Assembly (NCBI GenBank): GCA_030374765.1
Contig: JARGXX010000117.1
Span: 744,001 to 808,000 of the forward strand
DNA: 64,000 bases
Reading direction: 5' to 3'
Source of the DNA: Agarophyton chilense
Taxonomy: Eukaryota > Rhodophyta > Florideophyceae > Gracilariales > Gracilariaceae
In this document: positions 29,615 to 48,289 of the stretch, in pieces
Position numbering within the stretch: position 1 is the stretch's first letter
How the letters are laid out: each line of letters starts with the position of its first letter
The notes under the pieces: generated by a model
The model's database searches: none
The model's input: the letters and a program-made list of their open reading frames with translations, nothing else
Told to the model about the DNA's origin: nothing
Program-made: the position numbers and the translations under genes

Positions 29615-29634
29615 CAGTGTTCTCGGAATGCTAG
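29615..29634 (+). repeat. Left terminal inverted repeat
   Basis: CAGTGTTCTCGGAATGCTAG. The reverse complement of 48270-48289 is identical except for the second base. Subterminal GTGCTAG/GCTAGTTTT motifs follow at 29,730-29,770, where GTGCTAGTTTT and AAAACTAGCAC form a hairpin. Confidence 0.8.
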
Positions 29635-30126
29635 TTCAGTGGTCAAAAAAGGACGAATTGAAATGACCGAAAAACCCGTGAATTTATCCAAATTTGGAGG
29701 TGTTAATTTCCGAAAATATTTTCATTCGTTCATTAGTGCTAGTTTTTATGGGAAGGAAAACTAGCACATATCTGCAGTTTTTCTAGTTTTGATGCAGGTA
29801 AAAATAGCGTGAATCTTTCTGTCGCCGCAGTTTAAAGGTAAAAGTAGAGAAGTGGTGCAGGAGCAGATTCAATCTTTGTGCGCTCTAGATTGACAGATTA
29901 GTACAAACAACCGGTCCCAAAATGGACCTCAAAATAGAAATTGAACCTTTAGTACCATCCATATCAATCGCAATAGAATCGCAGCCCGACCTGGCAGACC
30001 TCACGTGCCTTGCATTCTATATTATTCTCCACCGCCCTCCCCTGTCACGTGCCCTGTGTGCGCCATACTCTCTCTCCGTCTACGCCCCCTACCAACTTCT
30101 TTCCCACCACCTCTCCTCCACCCACC

Positions 30127-33100
30127 ATGCCTTCCTGCTGCTTCAACGGTTGCTCCTTCTTCGCCCGAGAAATCCCCGCCCTCCAGTGGCACCAGAGAAG
30201 GTGCCCTCATCACCTCTCCGCCAACAAGCGCTTCCTCTCCCCTGGCGGAAATGAACCCAACTTCCCCCCCCGCACAAAACGCCACAAGTCCACCTCACAA
30301 CTCCCCCCTCATCCTCCTCCCTCACATCGCCCTTCCGACAACGTCCCTCTCGCACACCATGACTCCTATCCCCAAGACCAGCTCTCTCTCTCCCTCCACA
30401 CCCAGGACGCCATCCACGTCGCCACTGCCCCTCTCGGTTCCCCCTCCTCTCTCGCTCTCTCCCACCTCCGTCCTTCCACTCCCCCCTCGACAACCCCCAC
30501 CTGTAGATAATGGTCCTCTACATCTCCTCCATCGCCTCCAAGCTTGGACAACGAAAGGCTGACGAACTCATCACTCTCCTTAATGATCCCCACTTCTCCG
30601 AATCAACATTCCGGAACTCAGTCTCCTCCGCAAAGCAATGCCTCGAGCTCCAGGCAGACCTCTTCCACCAGAGAATCAGGTCCATTGGTTTCGCCCCCTC
30701 CACCATCTTCGATCCCCACAAACGCTTCTCCGCAACCCTCTTCCAGAAAGACGCATTCCATGTCCTCCAACAACAGCTCGCCCTCGCACACTTCAAGAAC
30801 ACCTTTTCCCACCCCATCTCCCAAACATCCGCCTCCGGATCCCCCGTCTTCGCACACCCCATGGCAGCCACCCTCGGCTCAATAGTCGTCCCCGCACTCA
30901 AGACCGCCATCATGCAGTCCACAAAAGATAACATCGTCTGGCATCTCCCTCACTCCACCGGTATCGACTCCTTCATCGGCCTCGTCCAAATCTACTCCGA
31001 CAAGTCCTCTACATCTCTCAAATCTTCTTCCATCACCTCCTACCCCCTCCACATCACCCTTCTCAACTTCTCCGACTCCTTTCGCCGCAAATGCATCTCC
31101 GACAATCTCACACTCCTTGGCTATCTTCCCACCTCCTTCACCCCAATCACTCCTTCTCCAGATGCAGATATCATCACTCATTCCTCCTTCATCCCCCGCC
31201 AAACAAAAATGGAACTCATACAGCAGACCATCTCCTCCCTCCTTTAACCTCTCTTCTCTTCCGCCCTCCCCGGTTTCCCCTTCGGCGACGCAGACGGCTT
31301 TCTTCGTAAATGCCACCCCATCATCGCCAGCTACTGTGCAGACATTCCCGAGGCAAAGGATATTCTCGCCATCTCCCACGGCACCCGCCCCCAGCACCCC
31401 TGCCACAGATGCTCTGTCCCTCGCTCACAACTCCACCAACACTCTCAAGCCCATCCCCCTCGATCTCTTCCCCTCACCCTTGCAGCCCGCAACAAACACT
31501 TCTCCCTCCTCAAGGACTCTGAAGCAGCTCTCCTCGCCCGCAAGCCAAGAGTCTCGCGCAACTTCAAGGAACAAGCTCTCCAAGCACTCCACTCCCTCTA
31601 CCTCGCAAAATACCCCTCCCTCTTCGAGTCTTACCCCCTTTTCAACATCACCTCCCTCCTCACCCCATACAACATCTTCCCCTTCGAACCCCTCCACAAC
31701 TTCCACCTCGGCGTTTCCAAACTCATCAAGCTCGCCGCCATCGAACTTCTCAGATCAGAACACCTCTTCACCACCATCAGCTCCACAAACTCCCGCCGTT
31801 CCTTCCACTTCGTCCGCACCTCCATCCTCAAGCACTCCAACTTCATCCTCACCGCCATCGAAAATCATTCCCCAGCTACCGGCCTCCACATCGACTTCTC
31901 TACTTCCGAAAACGGGCAGTGCCTCAACGGCTTCTTCACAACTGACGGCGTCCGCGGCATGCTAGAAGCAAAAGACTACCGCGCCCTCGACATGGTCTTC
32001 CCCTTCATCGGCGCCTTCTTCGACCGCTGCTGTGACGAAGCCAATTCCACTCCCATCACAACTGTCTTCTCCAGTACACAGACCTCCTCCTCACCTCCAT
32101 GTGCTATAACTCCGTCCCCGAATGGACCACTTCTCGTCTTGCCAAACTCGCCTCCCAAATCCATTCCTTCAAGCACAGAGCTGTCGATGTTCTCGGTCCA
32201 TACCATACCTCCAACCTTGGCACCCTCAAATTCCACCTCCTCGATCACATCGTAGACGACATTAGACGCTTTGGGGGTCTCCACTTCAACGATGCAGGCA
32301 TCTTCGAACAAGCCCATACCCTCTTCAAAGCACATTACTCCCGAACCTCCAAGCGCAGACCCACCGCGCACAACGAAACCATCCGTGCCATCGAACGCTC
32401 CGATGCCGTCAACAATTGGATTTCTCTCTCCGCTGATCCTTCTGTCACCTCATCCTCCCATGCCCTTTCTCCTCCCTTCCAAGCCCGCAAACCAGGTTTC
32501 GTCCATGATGGAAAGCACACCTCCTTTTCCGATCTCATCACCGCTCACAAATTCCTTCGAGCAAACCCCCACTTAACAATCTCTTCCCTTCAGGACCTCT
32601 TCTCCCCAGACACTATCGCCATCATCTCACAGATTGGAACCCTCGCACTCCCCTCCTTCGTCACACTCACACTCGAAACACTAGCTCTCAACCAGGACTC
32701 CCCCACTCTCCGCCAAACCCGTCTCACATTCGTCAATTCCGCATACGTCGTCGGCGGCTTCACCCCAACCCTAGACGACTACATCGCCGATCGAAACGAG
32801 CTCACCGTCAAAGATCCCCCTCTCCCACTCATTCAACGTATCTTCGCTGCTCCCTCCTTCGGTCCCTCTAAAACCCCAAAGTTCTCCCACATCCTCGTTG
32901 CCGGTTCCAGCTTCTCCAACCCCACTCCCACCGCCTGGGTCTGCAAGCTCAACTCTCTTCTTCGCTTCACCACCCCTTCTTCCCCTTCCACTCATAACGA
33001 GTTCGCCTTCGTTCAGTTCCTCGAACTCGTTCCACCCCAGGATCAAGTCGATGTCTCTCTCAATTGTATCTGCCTCCGATGGGCAACAGACGACGAACAA

Positions 33101-33388
33101 AACCACACTGCCCACCCCCTTCCTATCTCAAACACTTCCAACTCCGACAACGTCTCCCCCTGGTTTGGCCTCGTACCATCCTCTTCCATTCTCGGCCCCG
33201 TTCATGTACTTCGCCAAAACTACCCCGCACCCCCTTTCACCCCTCGATTGCACTGGCGCATCCATCGATTTTACCTCAACAGATTCTACCGAGACCCAAC
33301 TGCCAAGCCCTACTTCTCCAACACCACCACTGGTGGCACAACACCACCACTGGGTGGCACCCATGATAATACCTCCCAAGGCACATGA
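30127..33388 (+). pseudogene. Plavaka/CACTA-like transposase, damaged
   Basis: Starts at an ATG in good context (ccaccATGC) with a zinc-finger-like CCFNGCSFFAREIPALQWHQ. The frame then changes near 30,510 to MVLYISSIASKLGQRKADEL. Family-type motifs are SYPLHITLLNFSDSFRRKCI then NLTLLGYLPTSFTP (~31,045-31,140), DGFLRKCHPIIASYCADIPE (~31,300), PCHRCSV (~31,400), PFEPLHNFHLGVSKLIK (~31,690), and KFHLLDHIVDDIRRFGGLHF then FEQAHTLFKAHYSRTSKR (~32,230-32,355). These are the landmarks of the Plavaka branch of CACTA-like transposases. An in-frame TAA at 31245-31247 and a frameshift near 32,068 interrupt it, and the 30,510 frame change could be an intron or a third lesion. Pyrimidine-rich coding is striking and opposite in bias to the purine-rich cargo ORFs. 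Confidence 0.72.
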
Positions 33389-33589
33389 TCCAATAAAACA
33401 GTCACCGCTGCTTTTCTTCCATAGCCGACCCCCATCTTGCTCCACCTCCTTACCCCCTTATCCCCCCGTACCTTATCACTCTCCCACTCCTTGCCTACTC
33501 CCCAACGCTAAGCGCTTGAACCGTGGTTCTTCTGGTCCACATGACGCTATATAGCAATCTAACACTGCTCCAAGTCTTCTCGTGAGATT

Positions 33590-35124
33590 CTACATGAAAA
33601 ACTCCTCCCTTATCGCCAGATAGATTTTCTCTCTCGACGGTATCCATAGCCCAACCGTCGCGAGTCTCTCCTTATTCCCACTCACATCTCTACGATTCCC
33701 TCCACAGAATCCATCATTCTCAAACTCCTCAGCATACTCATCCTTCACCATGTTCCAGGCAACCCTCAATATGTCCTCAACAGCCAGTGGCAGAAACCTC
33801 CCAAACAGCGTCGAGAACAAAAGTTGCCTTTGGCCTCCCCGCCCAACGTCTCTATCCATCGTGGTCACCACACATCCAATCCATGCATCAAGTCGCGCAA
33901 GATGCATCACCGTCCCATCCACATACTGCCTCTCTCCATTTCTGTGACTCTCTACCGCGTAGCCCATAAACTCCTCCAACACTTTCAACGACACCTGATT
34001 TCGAAAATACATATCTGCCTCACCAAAGTCCTCCAAGTTCTCAGACACCTTCGATCCAGAATAAGTAATATCTTCAATCGCACTCGTTCTCCACGCACAC
34101 AGCTTACCTCTCCCATCCTCCCCGACCCCATCAACTTCTACTGCGCCTCATCAATCTGCTTCTTCAACTCCGCCCAAAGCTCCGTCCCTTCAGTCACCTT
34201 AGCTCGTTTCGCGATCAAATCATATCCAAGCATGGAAAACAGCTTATCACGCGCTGCTCGCTTCCGCACCCCAACCACATCGCTCAATGCTTGCTTCATC
34301 CTCTGTCTCAAGCACCGATCCGCACTTACATTTTCCACGCACTCCTCTCTCCTCCCCGCTTCCCTTATCGACTCCCATTTCTCTCCCATTAACTCAGTCT
34401 CTACCACGTGCTTCAACATCAAATGGCTCCCACCCTCTGTCGACGGCGTATACGGTCTCATCTCATATGCAACCTCAATTGGACATCTCGGAACCATTTC
34501 CTTCTCTCCCACCACAAACATACTTTCCTCCCTACTCTCCCCAATCGCCTCACTTCTATTCTTCCAGCTTCGACCCTCATTCTCGGTGTCGAAGCAAAGT
34601 TCCGATGCCTCCAGTTTTGCACAATGAAGAATCCTATCATACACACGACGTGCAAATCCATAAAAGCATTCCTGCACTCCAATGTCATACTTTCGTCGCC
34701 GCGTCACGCCTCCCTCCCCCCTCCCTTCCCCAGCGATTCTACTTTTCAACGCCTCCCTCAAACTCTCAATCAGCACATTCTGCTGCTTCATTTCCTCCCT
34801 CGCCCGATCCAGCTCCGTTTGGGTCATTTTCAAACTCACCATCACACTGTAGCTGTCTTCCTTCATACGTCCCATTTGTCCCTTCAACACATTCATCTTC
34901 TCCATTAGCATCGACCGCGGCAACAAACCTATGTCATCATGATTTGCTTCATCTTCCACTATACGGACGGCGTTCTCCACGACATTTAAATTCGCATTCT
35001 CCCCGTTATCATTATTCCTTGTGAATACAATGTTTCTCCTTACTCGCATACCTTCCGGCGTCCTTCGCCTTGCGTTCACCCCAAACCCTTCAACTCCCAA
35101 ACCCACCCCTCTCCTCGGTGGCAA
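33590..35124 (-). pseudogene. Coiled-coil protein, frameshifted, unknown
   Basis: A minus-strand frame (34138-35124) reads a basic N-terminus, then a clear coiled coil (MLMEKMNVLKGQMGRMKEDS through TQTELDRAREEMKQQN), then KLFSMLGYDLIAKRAKVTEG. It stops at 34138. The adjoining frame, open from ~34,140 to 33,590, continues the same character (AVEVDGVGEDGRGK through SGSKVSENLEDFGEADMYF). A single-base frameshift near 34,140 therefore splits what was one ~510-residue protein. No ATG is evident at 35,124 (the nearest start is TTG), and the frame merges with the basic ORF upstream. No family was recognised; as a CACTA-type element, a TnpA-like DNA-binding accessory protein is one guess. Confidence 0.4.
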
Positions 35125-36254
35125 ACGATCGACATCTTCTCCCTGATGAAAAGAACTGCTGCTCTTCCATCGCCTTCCTCCCCTGAACCACGTGTTCTCC
35201 CTCCAGCAAACCCCCTTCTCCCTCCCTCACTCACATGCACTTCTCTGCTTTCCCTTTCGTCTATCGCTCTTCTTCTTGTAACTCGAACACTCCCCATTCT
35301 TTCCCTTGCACGCTCTCTCCTTTCTTCCACGTAATTCAAGGTCGCCCCCTCCCATCTTTCCGCCTGTTCCCCCGCGGTAACTCCAACACTCTCTCCTTCT
35401 GTTCTCTCTCGAACGACTCTTGCGCCCGCGATTAGACCACTACTGGGTCCACCTATTCTACCCTCCCCACCACGGCTACTCTCTATTCTCCCTTTCTGTA
35501 TCTCTTCATCACCGTCCTCTTCCCTCATACCCGTAAACGATGCCCCTGCTTCTTCAACGCCTCTGAGGCGGGATCCACGTTCTCCGATCATTCTCTCTCC
35601 CTCCTTACGCCCCTTCATCCTCTCATTCGGAATCTCTTCACCTCCTTCAGGTGCAGAGCATAGATTTACCGGCTCCACATCAGCTGAGGACGTGAGTACA
35701 GCACTTAGAGTCCGCTCCGATGCATCCCCTCTCCTTGTCCTCCCTGGAGCTCTGCTCGCCCTCCCCCGCAATCCACTTCTAGGTACACGCCTGCGGTTGC
35801 TTCGCACGCCATCCCGTTTTCCATCGCCGCTCCGCACCATCTCTCCCGTAGGCGACGTGATTTGCTCCGTACACGACGTGATTTGCTCCGTACTCGACGT
35901 GATTTGCTCCGCACTCTCCTCCGTCACCGTCTCCTTTGCGCGAACAGCCTTTCCTTTGCCCCCACTCGCCTCTGCTTCCCCACCATCTTGCCTTGGTCTA
36001 CCTCTCAGGCACACGCTTCCCTTCTCTCCACTCGCGCCCTGGAGCCTACGCTCCTTGTCCCTTCCGCCCTCCGCATCCCCTCCATGCCGCCGTGATTTTG
36101 TACCGCGCCCGCTAGTGTTCTCGCTTCTCGATTTGCGCTTCGGAGCCGTGGTTGAAGAGAGAGAGAGCGATCGTGGTATGGTATTCCACGCGTTGCAATG
36201 CGATGGATGGGAGAGAAGCTTCGAAACATTCTGCTTCCAAAAATATACCTCCAC
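35076..36254 (-). other. Long basic low-complexity open frame, unknown
   Basis: 392 codons without a stop on the minus strand, rich in Arg, Gly, Glu and Ser, with a short internal repeat (AEQITSSTEQITSCTEQITS). The frame begins at GTG, so the true start, if any, is internal, or an upstream exon exists. It overlaps the start of the coiled-coil frame by 48 bases in another phase, which could mean a frameshift joining both into one protein. Composition bias of the strand may also produce such a frame by chance. Confidence 0.3.
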
Positions 36255-36473
36255 CCTTTTCGTGTTCTCAGAAAACCCCCAAACTTTTCAGATATTTTAA
36301 ATATGCGCTCGAACGTACCAGATATTGGGAAAGTATTCTCCTTCGGTGTACATGACTTTCCTTTAGCATATGTACTACGTCACGCTTTGAGGTTATATGT
36401 AGCGACAAACATAGTAAAAGCCCACAATATCTGGTACACTACAATGAAGTAAAGTAACAAAAGCGATGCACTT

Positions 36474-37094
36474 TTAATCGATTACTATGACTGGCGTGTT
36501 ATTCATACTCCAGATATACTCTGTCCCATAATCCACAAACAGCTCCTCTCCTATTTCTGTATCTCGAATTGCTTGCACAGAAAGCAATCTATAGTCTCTC
36601 AACTGAAATGGGGTCCGCCCCGTCCCCGGAGTTCTGATGACCCGAACATTTGCAGTTCGGCGTCTCATTAACCCGTCTTCAACCGCATCCCTGTCCCTAT
36701 CCCCTTCCACATACTTGGGGTCGTTAATTGTTCCCCCCAAGCAAAATGGAGCAGGGACAATCCACACCGGAATAAGAGACACCCCACTAATTCTTCCTGG
36801 TAGCTTGTGAAACACTTCCCCTCGGACGCTTATCTCCATCGCGTACTGCCGAAAACGATCAGCAGTCGCTTTCAATAGCACCCCTCCGTATGCCTTATGA
36901 ACTTCCTTCCGCTTTGAAAGATTATGGTACACCACAGTCCCGTAAAAGTAACAAACAGTCTCACCTTGTTTCACCCGGCGTGTTGTGTACACACCAACTC
37001 CAGCATTCGGGTGCCTTATCGTCGACTTTGCAATCCGACAACCACATACTGTCGCCTCCACTGCCAGAAGAGCATTCCAATCCAACAGTGACAT
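36474..37094 (-). CDS. SET-domain protein
   Basis: 206 residues from an ATG at 37094, essentially a bare SET domain. The N-terminal SET strand block reads STIRHPNAGVGVYTTRRVKQ then GETVCYFYG (cofactor-binding GxG region), and the C-terminal block reads QAIRDTEIGEELFVDYG, the usual catalytic tyrosine region. The central NHS/RFINH motif that forms the pseudoknot is not canonical (GGTINDPKYVE and later NVRVIRTPG take its place), so activity is uncertain. SET enzymes methylate lysines on histones or other proteins using S-adenosylmethionine. It lies 69 bases downstream of the DNA methyltransferase on the same strand, inside the TIR element, suggesting coordinated chromatin marking. Confidence 0.72.
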   Translation of the reverse strand: MSLLDWNALLAVEATVCGCRIAKSTIRHPNAGVGVYTTRRVKQGETVCYFYGTVVYHNLSKRKEVHKAYGGVLLKATADRFRQYAMEISVRGEVFHKLPGRISGVSLIPVWIVPAPFCLGGTINDPKYVEGDRDRDAVEDGLMRRRTANVRVIRTPGTGRTPFQLRDYRLLSVQAIRDTEIGEELFVDYGTEYIWSMNNTPVIVID

Positions 37095-37163
37095 CTTTCC
37101 TTGAAAACTTCTTGGCCACTCATACAGCGCCTGCTGTCGCCAAATCTCCGGTATATTCTTATC

Positions 37164-39587
37164 CTACCACATGGAGGAGAGAAAATCCACGATATGGGGT
37201 GGAAACATCTGATGCTCGGGAAATCCGGTAGGTGTTTTCCAGGACTTCGAACGCTTTATGACGACGTCCGGAAACAAGCATGTCACTCGAGTCACAGCGT
37301 TCCGAACATCTTGCGTTATATGAATGTCCGTCTCGTTGTTCCGCATGCATGACGCAAATTTCACTGTAGCGGCGTGCTTCGCATGAGCAAAGCACTGCGG
37401 ATCTGGCTCACACCCTAGAAACTGACGGTGATTTTCCAGTTCCATGCATGCCATTGCCGTTGAAAATGTTCCGGCGAAGAGGTCCACCACTATGTCTCCC
37501 GGCTGAGAAAACCTGCTGATGAGCTCCTTCAGCAAAGCGCGTGACTTCTGTTCCGCCCGCACTTTCTGATACGTAACTGCTCCTTTGGCATTCTTCCTTC
37601 TCCATAGAAGTGTTTCACCATTCGACATGGGAAGCACTTGGTCAATCACGCTATGGGAACCCGGATATCGCGATGGTACATAGCTGAAGTTCTCATAGTT
37701 CACCATGCCATGTTGTTCGGCGTAGGACAACCCGCTGCGAAATCCATGAATGGCGTACTCTGTTCCGGGAAACAGGGAGCACGAACTAAGTCCGGGATTA
37801 CGCATCGGATTGCCTTGAGAGCGAATGAAGTGCAGCTGGACCTTGTCCACGACAAACGACCTGCTCTTCTGTCCATTCTCATCCTTTGCAACAATTCGAC
37901 CGGACACTTCTTTCCATTCGTTCACCTGCTCAATCGCGCAGAATATAACGAAATGCCCTCCCGAACGCAGAAGTTTAGAGATGAGCTTCGCCGTCTTCAC
38001 CATGTCTTGCCGGTTTAAAACGTCATACCAGCTGTTTTTCCTGTTCTTCTTCGCACTTATATTATACGGCGGGTCCGTGAGAACCAACTGCACTTTCCCT
38101 ATCGGAGAGACCCCATAGCTGCGCAATGTCTCGTCAATCTCCACCAGGTTCTCGAAAGTACAATTGTACATTCGACAGTGCTTATCCATCTGCGACTCGC
38201 ACTTTTGGAGAGACATTATATCATCCAGAGAGGTAAGGTCGTGAGGCGGCAGAATATCCACCGACTCAGATTCGACCGACCTTGGTCCAGCTGTGGAAGA
38301 ATGCTGACCAACACCCATGTTCTCTTCCTCATTTCCGGTCCCACCCTCCACCGCCGGAGCCTCCGAATCTTTCTCAGGGGGTACAACTTCTATCTCGTCT
38401 TCTTCCATAACCATAGTAGGTTCCGCCTTTGTCGCAGCCACCACTTCCACCTCCACACTCCCTCGCAGCTTTAGTGGCGATATGTATTCCGAGATGGTAG
38501 AGATAAGAGAGTTCGAGAAGCAGTCGAATCTCTCCGCAAACACTCTAAGCAAAGTGTATATAAACGGTTTTAGACCGTCCCATCTTTCCGGAGCTGATAT
38601 AGAGTAAAGCTGCTCATTCACCACCACTTTGTGCAGGTCAGAGAGAAACTCTTTGGCCAACATACGAAGTGGAGTGTCAACGTACTCCGGCAGGTTCCAC
38701 GCCCATGGGACGACACCCTCCTCCAATAAAGTACGGTTTCTACCAGGAAGGAGTCGTTGGGCCATGTCCTTGTGAGAGAACCCATCCCTTCTGTTTCCAA
38801 TTGCCTGGAACTGCATATCAGAATATCGTAGATGGATAAAGGGCAAAACCATGAATTCCACGCCAGGGAATCCCCAATACTGGGCGAAGCTGTCCCACGC
38901 GTTATTGACGAGCTGCACACCAAAGCCCACACGCTGAGCTACTGGTTTGTCATAAATCGCCACCTTCGAAAATGGCGTATCGTAGGTTCTGTCCCGCTTT
39001 CTTCGCTTACGGGAGACTCTTCTCTTCTCCATAGAGACCGACTGAATACAAATGAGGAACAGCAACCTCTGGAACATTGTCGGGAAGTCGGTCGCGAATG
39101 GAGCCCGGATTTTGCTTGCCTTCTTTCGGGTTGTATCCAGACCTTTGAAGATCTCTGTCAAAGTGACATTCTTCGGGATGCCCTTGAACTCCACCGCCTC
39201 GTACGCGTTCCAAAAGTCCCTCACGCGCCTATCTGGGTCCCCATCCCTTATATCCAGCAACCTCGCCGAGAAATAATTCTGATAGTTCGAGCCCCTCATT
39301 CCTACAACTCGGAGCTCATCTTCTGTGTAATTGGTGTGGTCGGGACCTAGGAGAGTATAAAACAACTTCGCAGTCTCCGGTAGGATGTCGCTATTGGCAA
39401 TTGCGAAATCGATGAATGCAGTGTGCCCCACTTTTCGCGGCTCATCTTCCTCCCGCCTCGTTAATGCGTAACGATCACGCAAATCCAGACACGCCCTGAT
39501 AACTTCATCCCCCATACCAAACAGTTTACCCATTTCAAAGGTGTCTGCCGCAGGCGATGAAGAAGTTCTCGTGGGTTCTACAGCCAT
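37164..39587 (-). CDS. DNA N6-adenine/N4-cytosine methyltransferase, beta class
   Basis: 807 residues from an ATG at 39587. The N-terminal ~440 residues are of unknown fold and include a basic cluster (KRRVSRKRRKRDR near 190) and an acidic linker. The catalytic domain holds motif IV TDPPYN (D505-P-P-Y508), then SGGHFVIFCAIEQ, a probable target-recognition segment, and motif I DIVVDLFAGTFSTAMACMEL near 700 followed by FLGCEPD. The order IV-TRD-I defines the beta class. DPPY fits amino methylation of adenine (or cytosine N4). Such bacterial/viral-type enzymes are rare as host genes in eukaryotes and are known as cargo of selfish elements. Its start faces the palindrome array, an obvious regulatory or target site. 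Confidence 0.88.
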   Translation of the reverse strand: MAVEPTRTSSSPAADTFEMGKLFGMGDEVIRACLDLRDRYALTRREEDEPRKVGHTAFIDFAIANSDILPETAKLFYTLLGPDHTNYTEDELRVVGMRGSNYQNYFSARLLDIRDGDPDRRVRDFWNAYEAVEFKGIPKNVTLTEIFKGLDTTRKKASKIRAPFATDFPTMFQRLLFLICIQSVSMEKRRVSRKRRKRDRTYDTPFSKVAIYDKPVAQRVGFGVQLVNNAWDSFAQYWGFPGVEFMVLPFIHLRYSDMQFQAIGNRRDGFSHKDMAQRLLPGRNRTLLEEGVVPWAWNLPEYVDTPLRMLAKEFLSDLHKVVVNEQLYSISAPERWDGLKPFIYTLLRVFAERFDCFSNSLISTISEYISPLKLRGSVEVEVVAATKAEPTMVMEEDEIEVVPPEKDSEAPAVEGGTGNEEENMGVGQHSSTAGPRSVESESVDILPPHDLTSLDDIMSLQKCESQMDKHCRMYNCTFENLVEIDETLRSYGVSPIGKVQLVLTDPPYNISAKKNRKNSWYDVLNRQDMVKTAKLISKLLRSGGHFVIFCAIEQVNEWKEVSGRIVAKDENGQKSRSFVVDKVQLHFIRSQGNPMRNPGLSSCSLFPGTEYAIHGFRSGLSYAEQHGMVNYENFSYVPSRYPGSHSVIDQVLPMSNGETLLWRRKNAKGAVTYQKVRAEQKSRALLKELISRFSQPGDIVVDLFAGTFSTAMACMELENHRQFLGCEPDPQCFAHAKHAATVKFASCMRNNETDIHITQDVRNAVTRVTCLFPDVVIKRSKSWKTPTGFPEHQMFPPHIVDFLSSMW

Positions 39588-39759: not shown

Positions 39760-40143
39760 CTGTCGGCCGTCAGAGGTGCGCTCCGACTTCATCGGGGGTC
39801 CCGATGAAGTCCCCACACACCTCTGTCGGCCGACATAATACATATAATTTTGTAATTTTTAGGACGCCCAGGTGTACACGGTGCATTCTGTCGGCCGACA
39901 GAGGTGCGCTCCAACTTCATCGGGGGTCCCGATGAAATCCCTGCACACCTCTGTCGGCCGACATAATACATATAATTTTGTAATTCTTGGAATGCTCAAG
40001 TGTACACGGTGCACTCTGTCGGCCGACAGAGGTGCGCTCCGGCTTCATCGGGGGTCCCGATGAAGTCCCCGCGCACCTCTGTCGGCCGACATAATACATA
40101 TAATTTTGTAATTTTTGAAACGCCCAGGTGTACACGGTGCCTT
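39760..40143. repeat. Three tandem 128-bp units with internal hairpins
   Basis: Units start at 39760, 39888 and 40016 (exact 128-base period). Each contains two copies of the palindrome TGTCGGCCGACA (the very first is imperfect) bracketing an inverted repeat of GACTTCATCG / CGATGAAGTC, then an AT-rich spacer (ATAATACATATAATTTTG) and GTGTACACGGTGC. Confidence 0.95.
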
Positions 40144-40513
40144 CTGTCGGCCGACAGTCGACCATCATCTCAGAAACGCATCATGCGTGATGTTATGGCG
40201 TATTTGTCGGCCGACAGGGGTGCCCTGCGACTTCATCGGTCCACGGATGAAGTCGCAGCACACCCCTGTCGGCCGACAATTCACCAACATGTTGTAGGGA
40301 CACCATTCGGGCCATTTGTGGGCCGCTAGGGGTGTGCTGCGACTTCATCGGTGGACCGATGAAGTCGCAGGGCACCCCTGTCGGCCGACAAATACGCCAT
40401 GACATCACGCATGATGCGTTTCTGAGATGTTGGTCGACTGTCGGCCGACAGAGGTGCGCGGGGACTTCATCGGGACCCCCGATGAAGTCGGAGCGCACCT
40501 CTGTCGGCCGTCA
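40144..40513. repeat. Large imperfect palindrome carrying more TGTCGGCCGACA boxes
   Basis: The left arm (40144-40297) and right arm (to 40450) read as reverse complements: TCTCAGAAACGCATCATGCG on the left mirrors CGCATGATGCGTTTCTGAGA on the right, and each arm again carries GACTTCATCGG hairpins. Perfect 12-base palindromes start at 40145, 40205, 40267, 40379 and 40439, with degenerate ones at 40317 and 40502. Confidence 0.92.
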
Positions 40514-40607: not shown

Positions 40608-40662
40608 TGAAACTAAGCGGACGTAGCTCAGGTTGAAACTAAGCGGACGTAGTTCAGGCTGA
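40608..40662. repeat. Two-copy 26-bp tandem repeat upstream of the ParB-like gene
   Basis: TTGAAACTAAGCGGACGTAG followed by CTCAGG or TTCAGG occurs twice in a row, about 150 bases before the ATG at 40804. It may be a promoter element; the function is inferred from position only. Confidence 0.7.
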
Positions 40663-40803
40663 TTGCAACGAACTGCTCTCGGGAGTGTTCCGGATAGTCG
40701 CCACCAAAGGAGCTCGATCTAATACGTCTTAGTCTGTATACCATAAAAGGCTCAAAGCGCTCTGCGACCATTTGCAACCTCGACCGACTACGATCGGATT
40801 CAA

Positions 40804-42894
40804 ATGATGACTCGAGGCAAAGCGAAAGCGAGGAGTACTCCGCGGGGTACTCCATGCGCCACTGCGCGAAAAGCTACATCGGGAAACAATCTGGCTGATG
40901 GGGATAGGGTGGAGTTGTTCCTGGCGGATGGGACAGGGAAGAAGAAGGGTACTATGGTTGGCACTGCGGAGATGAGAGGTGTCGGGGGCAGTGGAGCGGC
41001 CTGGAAGGCGCTTTGCAGAGCGATGCATGGCCATTCGTTGCGCGAGTCTGCGAAGCCGGGAGAGGACTTGGTGGCCATCTGGAGGACTGAAATTAAGGAG
41101 GGGATCAACTCCAAGTATCCGTACTCCTTCAAGGGAGTGGAGGAGCCGCCGGAGTTGCTGAAGGATATGGTGTCGGCAGGTATATACGCATGGGATACCT
41201 CGATGACGACACGCGTCTCCTCTGTGCTGACTCCAGGGCCTCCTCGGCCGGAGACTTCCAAAAGCGCGACCCCCTCGAAGGAGTCTGCTACGCCTTTGAG
41301 GGGGAAGAGGGCACAGCCAACAACAGTGCCGCCGGCCATGAAGCAACCCGTCAAGCCGAAAAAGAGGGTGACGATAGTGGATGATTCTGATGAAGATGTT
41401 GTGGAGGTGGGGTCAGCGGCGAATGTACGCAGGGATTCGCACACCGGTCCCGAGTTGGAGTTGTTCGATGACGGCGATGCCGTTCCTTCGCAGGAAGTGG
41501 ATAGGACTCTCGTGGAAAAGAAGATCTCTGCTTCAGACTATGACCAGTGCCGCTTGATTGTGGACATAGATGACATACAAATCCCCGAGAAGACTGTCAG
41601 AAGTGTGAATGCGGAACACAAGGCGGCGACGATGGCAAAGTGCGAAACGTTTGGCTGGCTTGCGTCGGCAGGGTCGATTGCTGTTGCCATCGTCGGGGGA
41701 ATGGAATTAGATTTCAGTGAAATTGTTCAAAATGGGAGGGTAGTGGTGCCTGTCATACTCATTGACGGTCATCACCGCGTCTTGGTTCTGCGAGATCTGA
41801 AGAATGATCCCTCTGAAGGGAGAAAGTGGTTGGAAATTGTGCGGTCTCTTGATGTCGTTCTTTGGAGACGAAAGGACTGGAAGCCTTTATCGCTGAACGA
41901 AGTGCTCGGTCTTGGTAATGTACTCAATGAAATGAGTTCAAATGTGTTGAAGATGAGTTTCGCCGACAAGGTTCTTTCCACAGTGTCCTTCATTTGCAAC
42001 TTGATTGACGATAAGAGAACCAAGTTGGCTGAACTTACTGCGACACGGATAGCTGGGGCGCTGAAGACGAGCGAAGCTATAGGAATCTACAGCTTGCGCC
42101 ACTTGAATCGCTATGCGACTCTTGGGTTGAAATTCGTCAGGAGCGAAGGTCCCCTGGAGTTCTTTGAGAACGTATGCAAGGAGGGTCCAGTGCTAACGCT
42201 TGCGCATGTGTCGAGTGACTTGTTGTTAGGACTCGAAGACGAAATATTCCGTTTCGCAATCCGTTGTTTGCAGCTACATGTGAGGGTGAGGATGGGTTCT
42301 ACGGGGAATATGGGACGTTTCCAGGAAACGCGAAAGCAGTTCTTCCAATGCGCCATAGGAATGTTCCAACTATGCGAAAGGGCGGGAAAAGAGAAGGGTC
42401 TGACGGCGGGGAAGGTTCTAGACAGCACAATTGTGATGGGGAAGAACGAGGTGTCTTTAAGGGAGTACCTTTGCATGCAAACGGCGAAGATGGAGCTCAG
42501 TGGTCCGAAGCGGTTGTGGCCGGGGTTGGTGTCGAAGAGGATGAAAATCGCACAAAGGCGGATTGAAGGCGGTCTGAAAGTGAGTCTGGCGTCCCCAAGT
42601 GCGGAGAAGGATGTGGTGGAGGTGCCACCTTCTGTGAATGTTCCTTCGTCTAGTGCTGGAGAGTCTGTACCCCACCAGGAAACCGTGTTTCCCAGACGCA
42701 TCACACAAACTAGAAAAGGTACTGAGCGCGGGCTGGATGCTGCGGGTGAGAGGATGATGGAACCTAGACAGAGAAAGGGGAAGAGAAAGGCTGTGGTCAT
42801 TAGTGACGATGAACGCGAGTATGAACAGCCTTTAATGCGGAAGAGGAAGAGGAGAAAGACGGTGGGCACATCTGCGGCTCAAAATACCGGCTGA
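40804..42894 (+). CDS. ParB-like domain protein
   Basis: 696 residues from an ATG at 40804 (a second ATG follows directly). The N-terminus is basic and disordered, with an acidic DDSDEDVVEVG patch near 195. The core (~250-360) reads VDIDDIQIPEKTVRSVNAEH, FGWLASAGSIAVAIVGG, then VPVILIDGHHRVLVLRDL with DGHHR at residues 321-325, the phosphate-binding motif of the ParB/sulfiredoxin fold (usually GxxR or DGHHR). A long helical region follows (KMSFADKVLSTVSFICNLID), then a charged tail. ParB proteins bind palindromic centromere sites and hydrolyse CTP; related eukaryotic domains act as nucleases or kinases. Its divergent neighbour and the palindrome array upstream make a site-specific DNA-binding role attractive. 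The domain call rests on the motif only. Confidence 0.55.
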   Translation: MMTRGKAKARSTPRGTPCATARKATSGNNLADGDRVELFLADGTGKKKGTMVGTAEMRGVGGSGAAWKALCRAMHGHSLRESAKPGEDLVAIWRTEIKEGINSKYPYSFKGVEEPPELLKDMVSAGIYAWDTSMTTRVSSVLTPGPPRPETSKSATPSKESATPLRGKRAQPTTVPPAMKQPVKPKKRVTIVDDSDEDVVEVGSAANVRRDSHTGPELELFDDGDAVPSQEVDRTLVEKKISASDYDQCRLIVDIDDIQIPEKTVRSVNAEHKAATMAKCETFGWLASAGSIAVAIVGGMELDFSEIVQNGRVVVPVILIDGHHRVLVLRDLKNDPSEGRKWLEIVRSLDVVLWRRKDWKPLSLNEVLGLGNVLNEMSSNVLKMSFADKVLSTVSFICNLIDDKRTKLAELTATRIAGALKTSEAIGIYSLRHLNRYATLGLKFVRSEGPLEFFENVCKEGPVLTLAHVSSDLLLGLEDEIFRFAIRCLQLHVRVRMGSTGNMGRFQETRKQFFQCAIGMFQLCERAGKEKGLTAGKVLDSTIVMGKNEVSLREYLCMQTAKMELSGPKRLWPGLVSKRMKIAQRRIEGGLKVSLASPSAEKDVVEVPPSVNVPSSSAGESVPHQETVFPRRITQTRKGTERGLDAAGERMMEPRQRKGKRKAVVISDDEREYEQPLMRKRKRRKTVGTSAAQNTG

Positions 42895-42916
42895 CGTGGT
42901 GGATGTGTTCAAGAAG

Positions 42917-44491
42917 ATGAGCAGGAAAGAGCTGAAGCGCTTCTTGAAGGAACATGTACTCAATATTTTCTCATCGAGTGAGGATGAACTGGATGATGAT
43001 GGGGGGCAGGGTGCATTTGTAGGGGACGAAGAGGAGGAAGGTGTGCAAATGCGTGGCTTCGAAGACAATAATCTGGAGGGTGTTCCGAAGGGGCTGAAGA
43101 GGGCGGGACCGTATGCGGGGGGGTCGTGTATGTCGTGGGTGTACTTGGTGAATGCACTTCCGAGCGAGTGGCCGGCGGGTGAAAATGGAGTGAAGCATCA
43201 GCACCTCTGGATGCAGATGATTTACCTACGGAACAAGCACAGGGCGGAGTGCTTGAGGGTAGAAGACTTGAAAAGTGTGCACCATGCGGTTTATTGGCGT
43301 GCTGCTCATAACAGGCACAAGGAACTGGGTTCCACGAAAGAACCGGTTCTTGGGGTGATTCTACCGACGAAGAACCACCCTGTGAATGAAGAGCAGGCGA
43401 TATGGATGGCAGCAATGGAGAGGGATGACTTGGCCCGCGAGTACTTCCCGACTAAGAGAAGTGAGCTGATGGAGAAAAGATTTTGTGTTCTGGAAGGATT
43501 TGCCACGGACGACGGGATGGCGGATGAGGCGAAGAAGAGGGGAGTAAACTTCGATGGGGATGTGACTGGGACTTTGCTAGAGTTCTTCCAGACGGATTTC
43601 TTGAACCAGCCGGACTTGACGATTGAAGGGAATAGAAAGAAATGGGACCCTATAATCAACGCTGGTGAGGAGAGAGACGCTGGAGATAGAATGAAGGGAG
43701 TTGGGCGGTACATTACGACGCAGGTGGGGATTGTGGATTCTGTGGAGGGGGACGAGAACAACGTTTTAATGGTGAGGAAAAGGGCATTGTTGGATGCGAG
43801 GTTTGGACAGATTGCGGCCGCTCTTCCGTTGTGCAACAACAGGTCGGGGAAGAAGAGGATGTATGCCCCTGAAACAGGGGGGCGAGTGCTATGTACGGCG
43901 GAGGGCTGTCCAAGGCAGGTGTTACATACGGACCTTCGAGGACTGACCGATGCCGAGAAGAACGTCGGAGAGGTTCCAGGTTTCTTCATGATGGCGTCGG
44001 GAGCGAGTTCGTTTATGCTTTGGGTTTGTGAGAGGTCACATAACATGTACGTGCCCTACGACAGGAGGTTGAAGCGACTGTCTCGGACGATGGTATTGAG
44101 GAAGTTCAGGATTCCGCCGTACTCCATTTTTATTGGAAGAGGAGATGTGTTTCATGCTGGAGCTGGATACGAGGATGCATTGGTTAAGGAAGTTTGCATG
44201 AGGTATCACATGTACTTGGTACCGGATGGGTACAAGCTACCGGACGCAGTGCATAGGCAACCAGTATTTCGGCCTAAGTTCGAAGAGGATGATTCCAACA
44301 AGGGTGATGATGAAGACATCCAGGTAGATGAGGATGAGGAGTTGGATGAAGATTATAAAATGGAAGTTGTTGAAAGTGGGGAAGAGGAGTATGAAGAAGA
44401 GGATGATGAACCTGGGATGGGTCTCAACTCGGCTAACACAGATGGAGACTATGAAGACGGCGGTATGATAATGGATGACGACGACGACTAG
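42917..44491 (+). CDS. Putative Fe(II)/2-oxoglutarate-dependent oxygenase-like protein
   Basis: 524 residues from the first ATG at 42917. The frame is open upstream to 42,839, overlapping the end of the ParB-like gene in another phase. A jelly-roll oxygenase signature appears: QVLHTDLRG with H337 and D339, then PGFFMMASGASSFMLWVCER and SH, and GRGDVFHAGAGYED with H413, followed by R429 in RYHMYLVP. HxD...H...R is the iron- and 2OG-binding set of AlkB/TET/JBP/phytanoyl-hydroxylase-type enzymes. The C-terminal ~75 residues are strongly acidic, as in chromatin proteins. In fungi and green algae TET/JBP genes ride on large DNA transposons, so a DNA-base oxidase is an attractive guess, but I cannot assign the subfamily. 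The gap of only 22 bases after the ParB-like stop is very tight for a eukaryote. Confidence 0.55.
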   Translation: MSRKELKRFLKEHVLNIFSSSEDELDDDGGQGAFVGDEEEEGVQMRGFEDNNLEGVPKGLKRAGPYAGGSCMSWVYLVNALPSEWPAGENGVKHQHLWMQMIYLRNKHRAECLRVEDLKSVHHAVYWRAAHNRHKELGSTKEPVLGVILPTKNHPVNEEQAIWMAAMERDDLAREYFPTKRSELMEKRFCVLEGFATDDGMADEAKKRGVNFDGDVTGTLLEFFQTDFLNQPDLTIEGNRKKWDPIINAGEERDAGDRMKGVGRYITTQVGIVDSVEGDENNVLMVRKRALLDARFGQIAAALPLCNNRSGKKRMYAPETGGRVLCTAEGCPRQVLHTDLRGLTDAEKNVGEVPGFFMMASGASSFMLWVCERSHNMYVPYDRRLKRLSRTMVLRKFRIPPYSIFIGRGDVFHAGAGYEDALVKEVCMRYHMYLVPDGYKLPDAVHRQPVFRPKFEEDDSNKGDDEDIQVDEDEELDEDYKMEVVESGEEEYEEEDDEPGMGLNSANTDGDYEDGGMIMDDDDD

Positions 44492-44572
44492 ATAGTATCT
44501 GTTACCTATTGAACAATAAAGAGTACAATTTGAGGTAATATGTGGAGTAGTCCCCTTTTCTTGTAATAGTGA

Positions 44573-45402
44573 TCAGTAGTCATTCAGTAGAAACTCCTGA
44601 ACAACTGGATTGAAACGCATGAGAGTAGCACTTGCTTTTACTTTCTCATAGTGAATGACAACTGTCGAAGATATCAAGATTACGACATCCACTGTGTTAC
44701 CAAGCAGTATAGGAACACCAGGTCCCTCAATGCGAGAGGTGGAGAAGGCCGTTGAAGAGAGTGCAGCGAAAGTGCATGCCGACAGCCTCATACCGAGTAG
44801 TCGGAAGGTTACATCCGGACTGGATATGAATAAAGCCTGTTGAAAAGAGTGGGAGAGGGCGCCAAGCACGAGGTTCATAAAAGAGGTTCTCCGTGGTTCC
44901 GGGGTCATTGTGAACTTTGTGTTAAGATAGGACTCTGGAAAGAAGGATATAGAAACAAGCTGGAGAAGATATGCCAAAGCGCCAACTGCGGCCCTGCTGT
45001 GGAGAAGGCGATACAATTTGTCTTCCCGTCTGATGAAAGGGTACCGCTGACTGGAATGAAGCGGTGAACGAGGAAAAGTATGGCGTTAAGGGGGATGAGT
45101 AGAGTAAGGAGTAGAGCCCCGAATTCCAGAAAGGCTCGTTTCTTCCAGGTATATCGCTGGTTTGGATTGAACGGCGTAGTTTGTAGAGACCCGTATAACG
45201 CGTTTATACATTGTACGCCTCCTTCGATTATGAGAATGTGTAGCAGGCTTTGAATAGAACACCTCAATAGCGTTATGAGAATGAACCGAAGGAGAGAGTT
45301 GAATCTGAATGGAAGCTTATATTGCAGAGCTGGGTCTATAACTCCGAAGAGTGTAGTTACTGTGATTGTGAACGTTAAGGTCGATGTGAAGAGTGTTTGC
45401 TA
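44573..45402 (-). pseudogene. Multi-pass membrane protein, probably frameshifted
   Basis: Two overlapping minus-strand frames both encode membrane-like sequence. The upstream frame (45402-44905) carries FNSLLRFILITLLRCSIQSL and FGALLLTLLIPLNAILFLVH. The downstream frame (45016-44573) carries RAAVGALAYLLQLVSISFF, FMNLVLGALSHSFQQALFI and TVDVVILISSTVVIHYEK. A frameshift near 44,960-45,000 or an intron would give one protein with four or five helices. No ATG was identified for the first frame and no family was recognised. Confidence 0.35.
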
Positions 45403-45412
45403 ACTGAACATC

Positions 45413-45757
45413 TTAGTAAAGGCGTTTCAGTTTGCTAGTCTTCCTTGTACGCTTCACATAGGTAACGATATGATACCGCTCTTTGAACAGTTGTTTCAGA
45501 ATATCTTGCTGCTGTAGGGAGTTGCGAGTGGGGAGCCTCCTGGTGGTCGTACAAATGTCACGAATCTCGTCCATGAGCTCGTCGGTGATATGATTCTGGA
45601 ACCCTCTGACTTCGACCACATTCTGGGTGGTTGGAAGTTTGATTTGAAGGACTTCGTCGATCGTGATAACCGTTCGTTGTGGAAGAATATCTACAGCTGC
45701 TGAGCATTGGACAGAAGAACCAGGGGGTAGGGAAAGACGTGCTTCGTAGCGCTGCAT
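45413..45757 (-). CDS. Unknown small protein
   Basis: 114 residues from the ATG at 45757; the frame is open to 46039 but only with a TTG. It contains RYEARLSLPPGSSVQCSAAV and ITIDEVLQIKLPTTQNVVEV and ends in a very basic tail (RYHIVTYVKRTRKTSKLKRL). It sits between the membrane ORF and the reductase-like ORF on the same strand. It could be an exon of the membrane gene, since a ttcag acceptor-like site follows its stop. No family was recognised. Confidence 0.3.
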   Translation of the reverse strand: MQRYEARLSLPPGSSVQCSAAVDILPQRTVITIDEVLQIKLPTTQNVVEVRGFQNHITDELMDEIRDICTTTRRLPTRNSLQQQDILKQLFKERYHIVTYVKRTRKTSKLKRLY

Positions 45758-46172
45758 GCTTGAGAAGGAGAGGAGAGTGTTGTGTAGAAAGGTATTTGTG
45801 AGGGACTGGATACAGTATGTTGAGCGAAATGAAGTAGGGTGGTCATCGGTTGATATACATATGTAGTGATCAAAGTAGTTGTTAGGTTGTTGCCGTATCT
45901 CTGTCGCGGAGTATGAATAATTGTTATGAATGAAAACCTTTGATAGGCTGTAGGAGCGGTTATTGGGTACAGACTTAATAGCAAAGTTGGAAGCTTTATG
46001 AAGAGTGGTTGTAGTGATGATTTGTGATGTACGAAGCAATTCTTAATATCGTTTCTTATATTCTGACGTGGTGTCGTACGGATAGCAGTCTTTATCGAGG
46101 CAGCGAAGGAGATGGACATATGCTTTAGAAAGGAGGACTTGTTTTTATTGGAAGGGGTATATGAATGAAGTA

Positions 46173-46996
46173 CTACCCATTGAGGAGGACGTTCAAGAAG
46201 TTCGTATGGAAAGGGGAGGGGTCAGGGTTTCCAATGGATTTTTGGGAGTTAGAAAAGTTGTAGAAGTAGAAGTTCCGAAACTCAAAGTCCGAGAACGAGG
46301 TGGGGAACTGTGTAAGTGTTTTTCCGTGGGCCAGAAGTTTTTGGAGTGTTTCGGTTGTATTGTAGGCGATTCCTGTTTCGGATATGACGATGGCGAGGAG
46401 CTCTTTCATATGGTTGAAACGACTGTGCGGTGTTGTACTGCAACTTCGTGCATTGTGATAAAGCCATAAGAGGAGCCGACGAGATTAAAAGCTGATATCC
46501 ATACGAGTTTTTCGTAGTAAGCTTTAGAGAAGGAGGGCTGGTCGACGACATGACAAGTGAGGCCTGCGGTACTGAGGCGATTGGCGAGTACGGGAGCCCA
46601 TTTGCCGGTGGCAGTTGTGAGACCATGGGGACTGAGGAGGGTGACACCGTCCTCGGGGGGTGCGTTAAGGGAGGGGACGGCGAGGAAGAGAACGGCTTTG
46701 GTGCAGTTTTGGAGCCCATAGGTTGAAAGAAGTGGTAGAATGTTTCCGTTCTGAAGGAAGACCAGATCCTCTCTGCGGGAGGAAGGGCAGAATTGACTGA
46801 CGTCTTCGAGTGAATGATTTCTGCCGCAGAAGAAAATGGGGCCGTCGGGGATGTATTGCGCTGAGATGAATTCTTGAGTTGAGAGAAAAGCATCTTGTGG
46901 GGTGCCGTTGTTGCGAAGCAAAGTGCAGATTCGGCCTCTGCCGACAATAACGGCTGGGTCGGAGGTGCAAGGGATGGCAGTGAGAGAGTCGGTCAT
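46173..46996 (-). pseudogene. Ketopantoate-reductase-like (ApbA/PanE) protein, frameshifted
   Basis: Starts at an ATG at 46996. The N-terminal nucleotide-binding half reads CTSDPAVIVGRGRICTLLRN then RREDLVFLQNGNILPLL and GVTLLSPHGLTTATGKWAP, and the helical C-terminal half reads YYEKLVWISAFNLVGSSYGF, as in 2-dehydropantoate 2-reductase relatives. The frame stops with TGA at 46406, but the next frame (ATG at 46409) carries on the family pattern: ELLAIVISETGIAYNTTETL and TQFPTSFSDFEFRNFYF. One base lost or gained near 46,408 therefore splits it. Canonical members use NADPH in pantothenate synthesis; eukaryotic paralogues like this one often have unknown substrates. It is cargo with no obvious link to transposition. 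Confidence 0.6.
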
Positions 46997-47607
46997 GTTG
47001 AGTGCGAAAGGTGTTTGGAGTGCGGTGTGCTTTGAATTGAAGAAGTGGTGGGGGTGGCGAGTGTGGAGATGTGATTAAATAGAGAAGGAGTATGGTTGTG
47101 GAGGAATGGGTGTTAGGGGTTTTTGGGAAGGAGGTTAGATTTATGATATTGAATGGTGTTTATTGTGTTAAAAGTGTAGGAGTGTGTGTTGTTATGGAAG
47201 TCATAACGGGAAAGAGGGCTTATGAGTCATCGGCGGTTTGTGTTACGAATGAGTGTGATTTATTATAAATGAGAAGGCCATGAAATTGGGAGTAGTGAGG
47301 GAGCGCTGAACATGATAGAAGGTGTAGGAATATGGATGGGAGTGTGTGAGTGAGCAATGACTGGGGTTAAGGGCATCCGGAGCGTAGATGCAGGGGTGTA
47401 CGAGGGTACTGAAATTGGGCGAGCGCGCGCGAAAAGCGGGTCAAAAAAAGGAGATAAAAGGCCGGAGGTGGGCGAGAGGATTTTCGAGGGGGGGTGCTGT
47501 GTGGGAGGCTGCGGGTACTACTGGCTGCACTAAGGTGAGTGCGCTTGCGCTTGCGGTGGCTCTTGTCGATAGCTTTCGCGGGCGTTGGCGATGTCGAGCG
47601 GATCCCC
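46997..47607. other. Noncoding spacer inside the large element
   Basis: About 610 bases, rich in GT and G, with no convincing gene. A donor-like AAGGTGAGT at 47532-47540 could belong to a 5' exon of the following plus-strand ORF. Confidence 0.4.
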
Positions 47608-48039
47608 ATGGGGCTGGAGATCGGGAAGCTGTGGAGGGCGACTGAGGAACTGAAGAGGCGTGTGAAGGTGTTGGAAGTGCACATGGAAGGGGTGGGGGAG
47701 ATTTGGGGTGCGCGGAAGGTGTTGGAGGAGGTGGGAGAGCAGAGGGGGAGAGCGAAAGGGTCGCCGGTGACGCCAGGGAGACGCGGGGAGCCGGCTGGGA
47801 TGAAGAAGGGGAGAGAGGAATGGAAAGGGGGAGGAGTTGGAGAGAGTCGGCTGAAGAAGAGGAGGGTTGGTAAGGATGTGGAGAAGAAGGGTGGGAATGT
47901 GTATGTGGTGGGGCAGCAAGGTGTGAGGAACTTGAGCAGTGGGGAGGTGGAGGAGGTTGAGAATGCGGTGGTGGAATTCTTCAACCTCAAGTACCCTCCC
48001 GGTGGAACGCTGGAGCCTAGTAAGCAAAAGGGCCAGTAA
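47608..48039 (+). CDS. Small basic coiled-coil protein, unknown
   Basis: 143 residues from the ATG at 47608 (cccATGGgg); the frame is open from a GTG at 47539. Heptad-like helices (LEIGKLWRATEELKRRVKVL) are followed by a Lys/Arg/Gly-rich middle and a compact C-terminus (SSGEVEEVENAVVEFFNLKY). It is the last ORF before the right TIR. It may be a DNA-binding accessory of the transposon, which is speculative. Confidence 0.4.
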   Translation: MGLEIGKLWRATEELKRRVKVLEVHMEGVGEIWGARKVLEEVGEQRGRAKGSPVTPGRRGEPAGMKKGREEWKGGGVGESRLKKRRVGKDVEKKGGNVYVVGQQGVRNLSSGEVEEVENAVVEFFNLKYPPGGTLEPSKQKGQ

Positions 48040-48269
48040 TGAGGTAGAAGGTACTGACGTCTGCCTTAGTATGGATTTCCACCTAGAGCGGTCAAAAGTG
48101 ACCAGTAAACTGCAAATGCAGATTAAACTGCATTAAGTGGTCAAAACACTAAGATGCATGAAGTTCTTATTTCCAAATATTTTTTTTCAGGTGCTGAACT
48201 AGCGCAATCTGCAAAATTCTTAGATTTTTTGGCTTTTTATTTACAAAACTAGCTATCTAGCACACTTAT

Positions 48270-48289
48270 CTAGCATTCCGAGAACACAG
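48270..48289 (-). repeat. Right terminal inverted repeat
   Basis: On the minus strand reads CTGTGTTCTCGGAATGCTAG, the partner of 29615-29634. CTAGC-containing subterminal motifs (GAACTAGCGC, AAAACTAGCTATCTAGCAC) lie just inside, echoing those at the left end. Confidence 0.8.

Follow-up and report, generated by a model that had tools for sequence, protein, structure and literature searches.

A decayed Plavaka-type DNA transposon of the red alga Agarophyton chilense with methyltransferase–SET and putative ParB–oxygenase cargo genes

Transposons that carry single chromatin-modifying enzymes are known already. In the sections of PMC12730594 drawn on here, TET/JBP genes ride on fungal Plavaka and KDZ transposons, and SET genes on HarbingerS and MuDR transposons of the oomycete Phytophthora. 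N4CMT of bdelloid rotifers is described in the corresponding sections of PMC8885841 as a chromodomain-bearing PF01555 enzyme by which transposons are marked, and the sections used of a survey of the ParB fold (PMC12704722) report phage fusions of the fold to PF01555, its main text there making no mention of an oxygenase or dioxygenase. Here we describe an element at 29612–48292 of a 64,000-nucleotide stretch of Agarophyton chilense DNA (the window; GCA_030374765.1, contig JARGXX010000117.1, hereafter C117, positions 744001–808000). It is a decayed copy of an 18–19-kb cut-and-paste DNA transposon of the Plavaka lineage and belongs to a multicopy family. Its distinguishing feature is the cargo: a DNA writer and a SET domain are joined in one fusion gene, a ParB-type fold and a putative eraser in another, and the two diverge from a palindrome array. 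Tens of closely similar copies show this arrangement, and the genome yielded no C5 DNA methyltransferase match.

The comparisons that follow hold for the sections of the cited reports used above. With the TET-bearing Plavaka and KDZ transposons (PMC12730594), the element shares a Plavaka-type transposase, a short terminal inverted repeat (TIR), 2- to 3-bp duplications and oxygenase-type cargo; it differs from them in its methyltransferase–SET and ParB–oxygenase fusions, in the lack of a TET/JBP family match, in termini unlike those of PlavakaA and PlavakaB, and in a third cargo gene whose best named relative is red algal. Like HarbingerS and MuDR of Phytophthora, it brings a SET domain of the histone-methyltransferase type onto a DNA transposon, but the transposase is different and the SET domain is fused to a DNA methyltransferase. 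Bdelloid N4CMT (PMC8885841) likewise couples a bacterial-type PF01555 amino-methyltransferase to a eukaryotic chromatin domain; it is, however, a host gene with a chromodomain, whereas the enzyme described here is transposon-borne and has a SET domain and a long N-terminal part. The ParB-CTPase fold proteins KorB, Noc and DndB-like (PMC12704722) resemble our protein in predicted fold, in a DGxHR motif and in palindromic repeats beside the gene, whereas here a eukaryotic transposon encodes the fold and an oxygenase-like domain as one fusion, and both nucleoside triphosphate (NTP) binding and the DNA target are predictions. Very large Plavaka-flanked repeats have also been described in the protist Amoebidium (PMC11244446, in part), but tyrosine recombinases account for many of their genes. 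We found no description of a methyltransferase–SET or ParB–oxygenase transposon in those parts of the open-licence literature that were searched. If the interpretation developed below is correct, the element offers a way to test whether mobile DNA can add a new epigenetic layer to a eukaryote, and it would rank among the few cases in which a ParB-type protein targets DNA in the nucleus of a eukaryote.

The ends of the element were defined by searching the whole genome (79,762,974 bases in 135 contigs; C numbers denote contigs and L numbers fetched copies). With up to three mismatches, the TIR gives 240 forward and 224 reverse matches, against 1 and 1 for a reversed control; the exact right-end TIR gives 48 and 47 (control, 0 and 0). 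Exact left ends number 87, and 55 of them have a properly oriented exact right end within 30 kb, at distances from 3.0 to 19.3 kb. A methyltransferase match is enclosed in 28 of these 55 pairs, and the other 27 are without one.

The initial annotation had placed an inverted repeat of 19/20 matching bases at 29615 and 48289, flanked on both sides by ACGT. The repeat is present at these positions, but the true TIR is longer. Both ends were fetched for 20 of the 55 paired elements (14 large and 6 small), and CGT directly precedes the left end in all 20. Directly after the right end, 18 elements have ACG and the remaining two GCG or TCG. These bases therefore belong to the repeat: the TIR comprises 23 bp and the duplication is formed by the next 2 bp. 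With the window copy added and one copy removed because its flanks are common to another, we compared 20 independent insertions: the 2-bp flanks match in 19 of them (shuffled mean 4.2, maximum 10), the 3-bp flanks in none and the 4-bp flanks in one. The matching dinucleotides, read from the left flank, are TA (8), TT (3) and a mixed remainder, and the single element without a 2-bp duplication is a small one with TT/AA flanks. ACGT does stand on both sides in the window and in 7 of the 20 other copies, but it is not a 4-bp duplication, and this candidate was rejected. A 23-bp TIR with a 2-bp duplication agrees with the Plavaka definition, which calls for a TIR and a 2- or 3-bp duplication. The termini, CGTCA..AGACG, differ from the TGT..ACA and CATCA..TGATG of PlavakaA and PlavakaB, and the element was assigned to neither group. 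Subterminal repeats amount to just short motifs of 8–9 bases.

For empty sites we used a 402-base query in which both window flanks are fused with one TA. Its 15 matching rows comprise eight other places that match over all 402 bases with 75–87% identity, four that match partially across the junction (12 places without the insert in total), the two halves of the window, which overlap by the 2 bases of the duplication, and one short piece. The flanks hold an open reading frame (ORF) resembling that of a Mutator-like element (MULE) (27102–29611 and 48295–49403; PF10551, E 9.7e-5, below the Pfam cut-off), and the element thus seems to have been inserted into another transposon. Other copies of the interrupted MULE-like transposon provide the empty sites. 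Copies, empty sites and duplications together support the giant TIR-bounded transposon with DNA- and chromatin-modifying cargo that was first annotated, with duplications of 2 bp instead of the expected 4, and we regard it as almost certain that 29612–48292 is a mobile Plavaka-type element with this cargo.

The same ends and gene order are present elsewhere in the genome. An exact left TIR lies within 15 kb and in the same relative orientation at 44 of 57 methyltransferase matches, the remaining 13 being without one. Around 56 methyltransferase loci we counted the divergent ParB gene (within 6 kb) 46 times, the second core protein 53 times, the Plavaka transposase 50 times and the third cargo gene 32 times, and all four neighbours occur together at 28 loci; the counts were compiled by hand from lists of the genome searches, with small fragments of the third gene and the second core protein omitted. 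These searches scored part of their candidates (Plavaka, PF18759, 123 matches of 235; methyltransferase, 56 of 208; ParB, 62 of 248; oxygenase, 79 of 179; second core protein, 113 of 312). The 30 methyltransferase loci that were fetched are the best-scoring of the 57 matches and are therefore biased to intact copies. Their left flanks are unrelated, except for two duplicated pairs (L013/L030, 98.9% identical over 1496 bases; L022/L023, 99.8–100% over 1269) and partial repeats. At C77:806039 and 809246 (L050/L051), two equally scoring methyltransferase copies of opposite orientation are separated by 0.8 kb, which may reflect a large inverted duplication or an artefact of the assembly. Several small elements of 3–8 kb (C3:24943–29746, C1:1548343–1553171 and others) have the same TIR and transposase start and no methyltransferase match; they are without the approximately 840 bases that follow the first 223.

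Table 1. Positions of the element's ends, genes and repeats in the window
Feature	Position	Strand	Basis
Left target-site duplication, 2 bp, TA	29610..29611	.	Flank comparison, empty sites
Left TIR, 23 bp, CGTCAGTGTTCTCGGAATGCTAG	29612..29634	+	Genome search, ends comparison
Plavaka transposase gene, broken; pieces 29977–30510, 30507–31247, 31248–32255, 32036–33388	29977..33388	+	Pfam
Second core protein, coil-like part by eye	34138..35226	-	Genome homologues, beside other Plavaka transposases
SET-domain part, severed by one in-frame stop	36474..37163	-	Pfam
DNA methyltransferase part, 807 aa, PF01555, DPPY before motif I	37164..39587	-	Pfam, homologues
Array, 12 copies of 12-bp palindrome TGTCGGCCGACA (at most 1 mismatch)	39761..40513	.	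Between two divergent genes
ParB-fold part, frame break near end	40747..42894	+	Predicted fold
Putative 2-oxoglutarate (2OG) oxygenase part, HTD...H...R	42836..44491	+	Motifs
Third cargo gene, Rossmann/reductase-like by eye, 222 aa	46406..47074	-	Homologues
Right TIR, 23 bp	48270..48292	-	Genome search, ends comparison
Right target-site duplication, 2 bp, TA	48293..48294	.	Flank comparison, empty sites

The Plavaka-like transposase beside the left end holds up as annotated: two of its pieces in the window score above the Pfam cut-off for PF18759 (28.8 and 37.3 bits; cut-off 26.3), and copy L008 reaches 81 bits. In L008, from which the upstream start was inferred, the frame is open over 1082 aa up to the edge of the fetched stretch, and a CHRC string is visible in the unaligned ORF (the defining pattern is C(2)C and H(3-4)H between the second D and the last E). 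The neighbouring core gene has open frames of up to 960 aa in other copies, and 35076–36287 on the minus strand may encode the N-terminal part of its product. Approximately 70 places in the genome are 85–97% identical to it and others 39–55%. Relatives with 39–42% identity lie approximately 3 kb from six other Plavaka matches (C97:1143075, C68:665322, C75:822395, C75:1632753, C103:111638 and C115:403285), so that a two-gene core looks general in this genome, and the product is probably a second transposition protein.

The DPPY DNA methyltransferase and the SET protein recognized earlier are both confirmed in the window (N6_N4_Mtase, E 4e-18; SET, E 1.5e-6), with scores of 66.9 bits for PF01555 (cut-off 26.7) and 23.4 bits for SET (cut-off 22.4). 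In 12 of the 30 fetched copies they form a single ORF of 1043 or 1036 aa, which a stop at codon 808 interrupts in the window copy. DPPY and the D..(A/S/G)GT(F/Y) motif occur in 11 of 11 aligned methyltransferases, as does the SET tyrosine motif, and the nearest solved structure to the methyltransferase is DpnA (9e-10). The 1043-aa protein has 21 homologues among 5.8 billion proteins, seven of them annotated with both PF01555 and SET. In IMG/VR, its alignment matches at least 63 loci, all within residues 436–759, the methyltransferase part, and no SET-part match is among the matches listed; the ParB–oxygenase alignment gives 75 pattern matches there and no relative. As far as these scans of IMG/VR show, a viral origin of the cargo is rejected.

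The second fusion, divergent from the methyltransferase–SET gene, is a single 1247-aa ORF in L069. Its frame is without inner stops at 6 of 63 genome matches, and in the window copy it is broken between the two parts. Three homologues were found among 8000 scored candidates in a search of the same 5.8 billion proteins. For the first half, annotated as ParB-like, the window protein has no family match, but the predicted structure fits ParB structures and has the ParB/Srx fold. The fold match spans the NTP-binding and helical parts, and the DGxHR motif is present; families missing from the fold-match list are not thereby excluded. No ParB profile in Pfam matches this half, and a PDB profile search gave nothing significant (best E 0.31). 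The DGQHR profile TIGR03187 reaches E 7e-4 with 19.5 of 58.85 bits in one of five members, and a ParB-like PHROG match for P0003 is weak (E 0.036). The second half carries the HxD...H...R motif on which the oxygenase annotation was based, invariant in five of five homologous sequences with a spacing of 16 from H to R, while the fold itself is unproven. This ligand motif is common to many 2OG enzymes, and we take the half to be a putative Fe(II)/2OG oxygenase on the strength of its motifs. Assignment to TET/JBP was not made, as no Tet_JBP profile matches at E ≤ 5.

Each of the 30 fetched methyltransferase loci has the palindrome array between the two fusion genes, ahead of the methyltransferase start; the palindromes number 2 to 20 per locus, counts that are possibly cut short because the fetched stretches end 1.5 kb past the match. 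In the window, 10 of 11 gaps between palindromes are 60–65 bp. An 18-base extension of the palindrome (at most one mismatch) has 332 and 321 matches on the two strands of the whole genome, against none for a control; among 100 places listed, 52 fall within elements whose two ends form an exact pair, and the other 48 have an exact end no more than 20 kb away. Across 30000–48000 of the window, the GC skew goes from strongly negative on the left to strongly positive on the right, with the change of sign near the array.

We tentatively favour an autoregulated writer/eraser switch that controls the element, a reading that falls a little short of being probable. The methyltransferase–SET protein would mark the element's DNA (as N6-methyladenine or N4-methylcytosine) and nearby histones, and the ParB-fold half would recognize the palindrome array in the shared promoter region and deliver the oxygenase there, where it might remove or alter the marks. 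The pair would in this way set how strongly the element's genes are expressed and how often it moves. This reading builds on past movement, gene linkage, the two fusions, the predicted ParB fold and the place of the array, all of which the data show, while the enzymatic activities, their substrate, binding to the palindromes and the switch are predictions. The initial annotation's picture of cargo that writes, reads and erases marks is likewise a hypothesis, with an eraser recognized by its motifs. We consider it unlikely that the element encodes a complete transposon-borne DNA-methylation system, in which a fused DNA-and-histone writer is paired with a ParB-type clamp that loads on parS-like palindromes and carries the oxygenase eraser along the DNA, in a host without a C5 methyltransferase found, and whose module was later used near chromosome ends.

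Several observations weigh against the switch. The oxygenase half is without a significant sequence match in Pfam, NCBIfam, PHROG or PDB, giving weak unrelated rows only, and its structure model is poor (predicted local distance difference test score 33.7). SET domains usually have the NH of an NHxCxPN motif, and the SET part has ND or NE in its place. At least four small elements without a methyltransferase also hold palindromes, toward the right end, so the array need not serve the cargo alone. Finally, changes found in a single methyltransferase copy are near neutral: 381 of 557 are nonsynonymous, 162 synonymous and 14 stop (expected 69%, 27% and 4.7%), and changes in three or more copies comprise 12 nonsynonymous and 6 synonymous. 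These substitution counts do not demonstrate that selection acts on the cargo within the family.

The single-copy changes fall 180, 171 and 206 times on the three codon positions of the 30 copies, and their near-neutral pattern indicates that copies decay almost freely after insertion. In the window copy, the methyltransferase–SET gene has its stop, the ParB–oxygenase gene its frame break, and the transposase is in pieces. The initial annotation had overlooked this damage, as well as the palindrome array and the gene fusions of intact copies. Such decay, together with the 27 same-TIR pairs without a methyltransferase match, would be expected if the cargo were a passenger, captured by chance, of no benefit and decaying with the element. 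We nevertheless consider this highly improbable, since the divergent gene pair recurs in a second, diverged family (see below) and the motifs are invariant in distant homologues.

The 29 other fetched methyltransferase copies are 97.9–99.97% identical to L043, which points to a recent spread. This bears on a model of self-silencing or copy-number control, in which methyltransferase and SET write repressive marks that limit movement and the ParB–oxygenase tunes them. The fusion of the writer to SET fits such a model, as does the bdelloid PF01555 enzyme that is joined to a chromatin domain and marks transposons (PMC8885841, in the sections used), but a recent spread argues that any silencing is incomplete, and the enzyme activity is a prediction. 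We consider this model rather unlikely.

The initial annotation had suggested evasion of silencing. Read as an oxygenase that strips 5-methylcytosine (5mC) set by the host, this is the role proposed for fungal TET/JBP transposons, and the TET/JBP genes on Plavaka and other fungal transposons (PMC12730594, in the sections used) and the HxD...H...R motif would be in keeping with it. However, no C5 DNA methyltransferase (PF00145) was found in the genome at E ≤ 0.001, a search that was positive in 10 of 14 control genomes and that intron-split genes could escape. C-to-T type changes affect 73 of 384 CpG sites and 146 of 1202 other C/G sites, just 1.6 times as often, which is a weak 5mC signature. 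Taken together, these two results make erasure of 5mC unlikely, and with no TET/JBP family match, we judge anti-silencing very improbable.

A second, diverged family of the cargo exists in the same genome. The oxygenase search gives 14 further places at approximately 50% identity, and the PF01555 search a separate group whose open frames are often 1130–1141 aa. Its ParB–oxygenase is 41% identical to that of the main family over its length. We hand-picked 36 methyltransferase places of this family from 116 PF01555 matches; the other 80 comprise 59 in or beside main-family places, 6 with an exact TIR no more than 20 kb away, and 15 of neither kind, mostly with short frames. A listed ParB–oxygenase of the second family lies within 20 kb of 12 of the 36 places and is divergent in 11, the one on C31 being the exception. 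None of the 36 has an exact main-family TIR within 20 kb, and just one has a scored Plavaka match nearby. The initial annotation had named cargo genes found as stable single-copy host loci without TIRs as evidence against its proposal. The main cargo is mostly TIR-linked, but the second family is without the main TIR, which argues against a cargo tied solely to the main element.

On contigs over 150 kb, 23 of 31 second-family places are no more than 25 kb from a contig end, compared with 6 of 46 main-family matches (contigs of known length). This distribution, and the pairing of writer with oxygenase in both families, would be consistent with hypermodification, in which methylation and oxidation yield a modified base that protects the element's DNA or stabilizes chromosome ends. 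Base J and the DNA modification of phages offer a comparison. However, the contig ends are possibly assembly breaks, the main family lies away from ends, and no further modifying enzyme was recognized among the ORFs searched, with no search aimed at a glycosyltransferase; we regard hypermodification as quite improbable. Telomere-like repeats open C95 and C76. They also open C1 and C88, two contigs with no listed second-family match near that end, and at other contig ends the assembly may have broken off in a repeat. Second-family sites include C95:4032–14121, C95:2984630–2997456, the end of C98 and C106:347716–359500 (L110).

The third cargo gene has a 300-aa open frame in many other copies, and a relative with 41–44% identity stands in the same order in the second family on C92, C76 and C95, and not on C31 and C32. 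It had been annotated as reductase-like; no Pfam family matches at E ≤ 1, but homologues do exist in algae and Marchantia. There are 76 of them, the best named one in Gracilaria domingensis (53%), which makes the red-algal setting proposed in the initial annotation plausible. Pyramimonas, Compsopogon, pelagophytes and Marchantia come lower in the list, and the gene seems to have been captured from a photosynthetic eukaryote.

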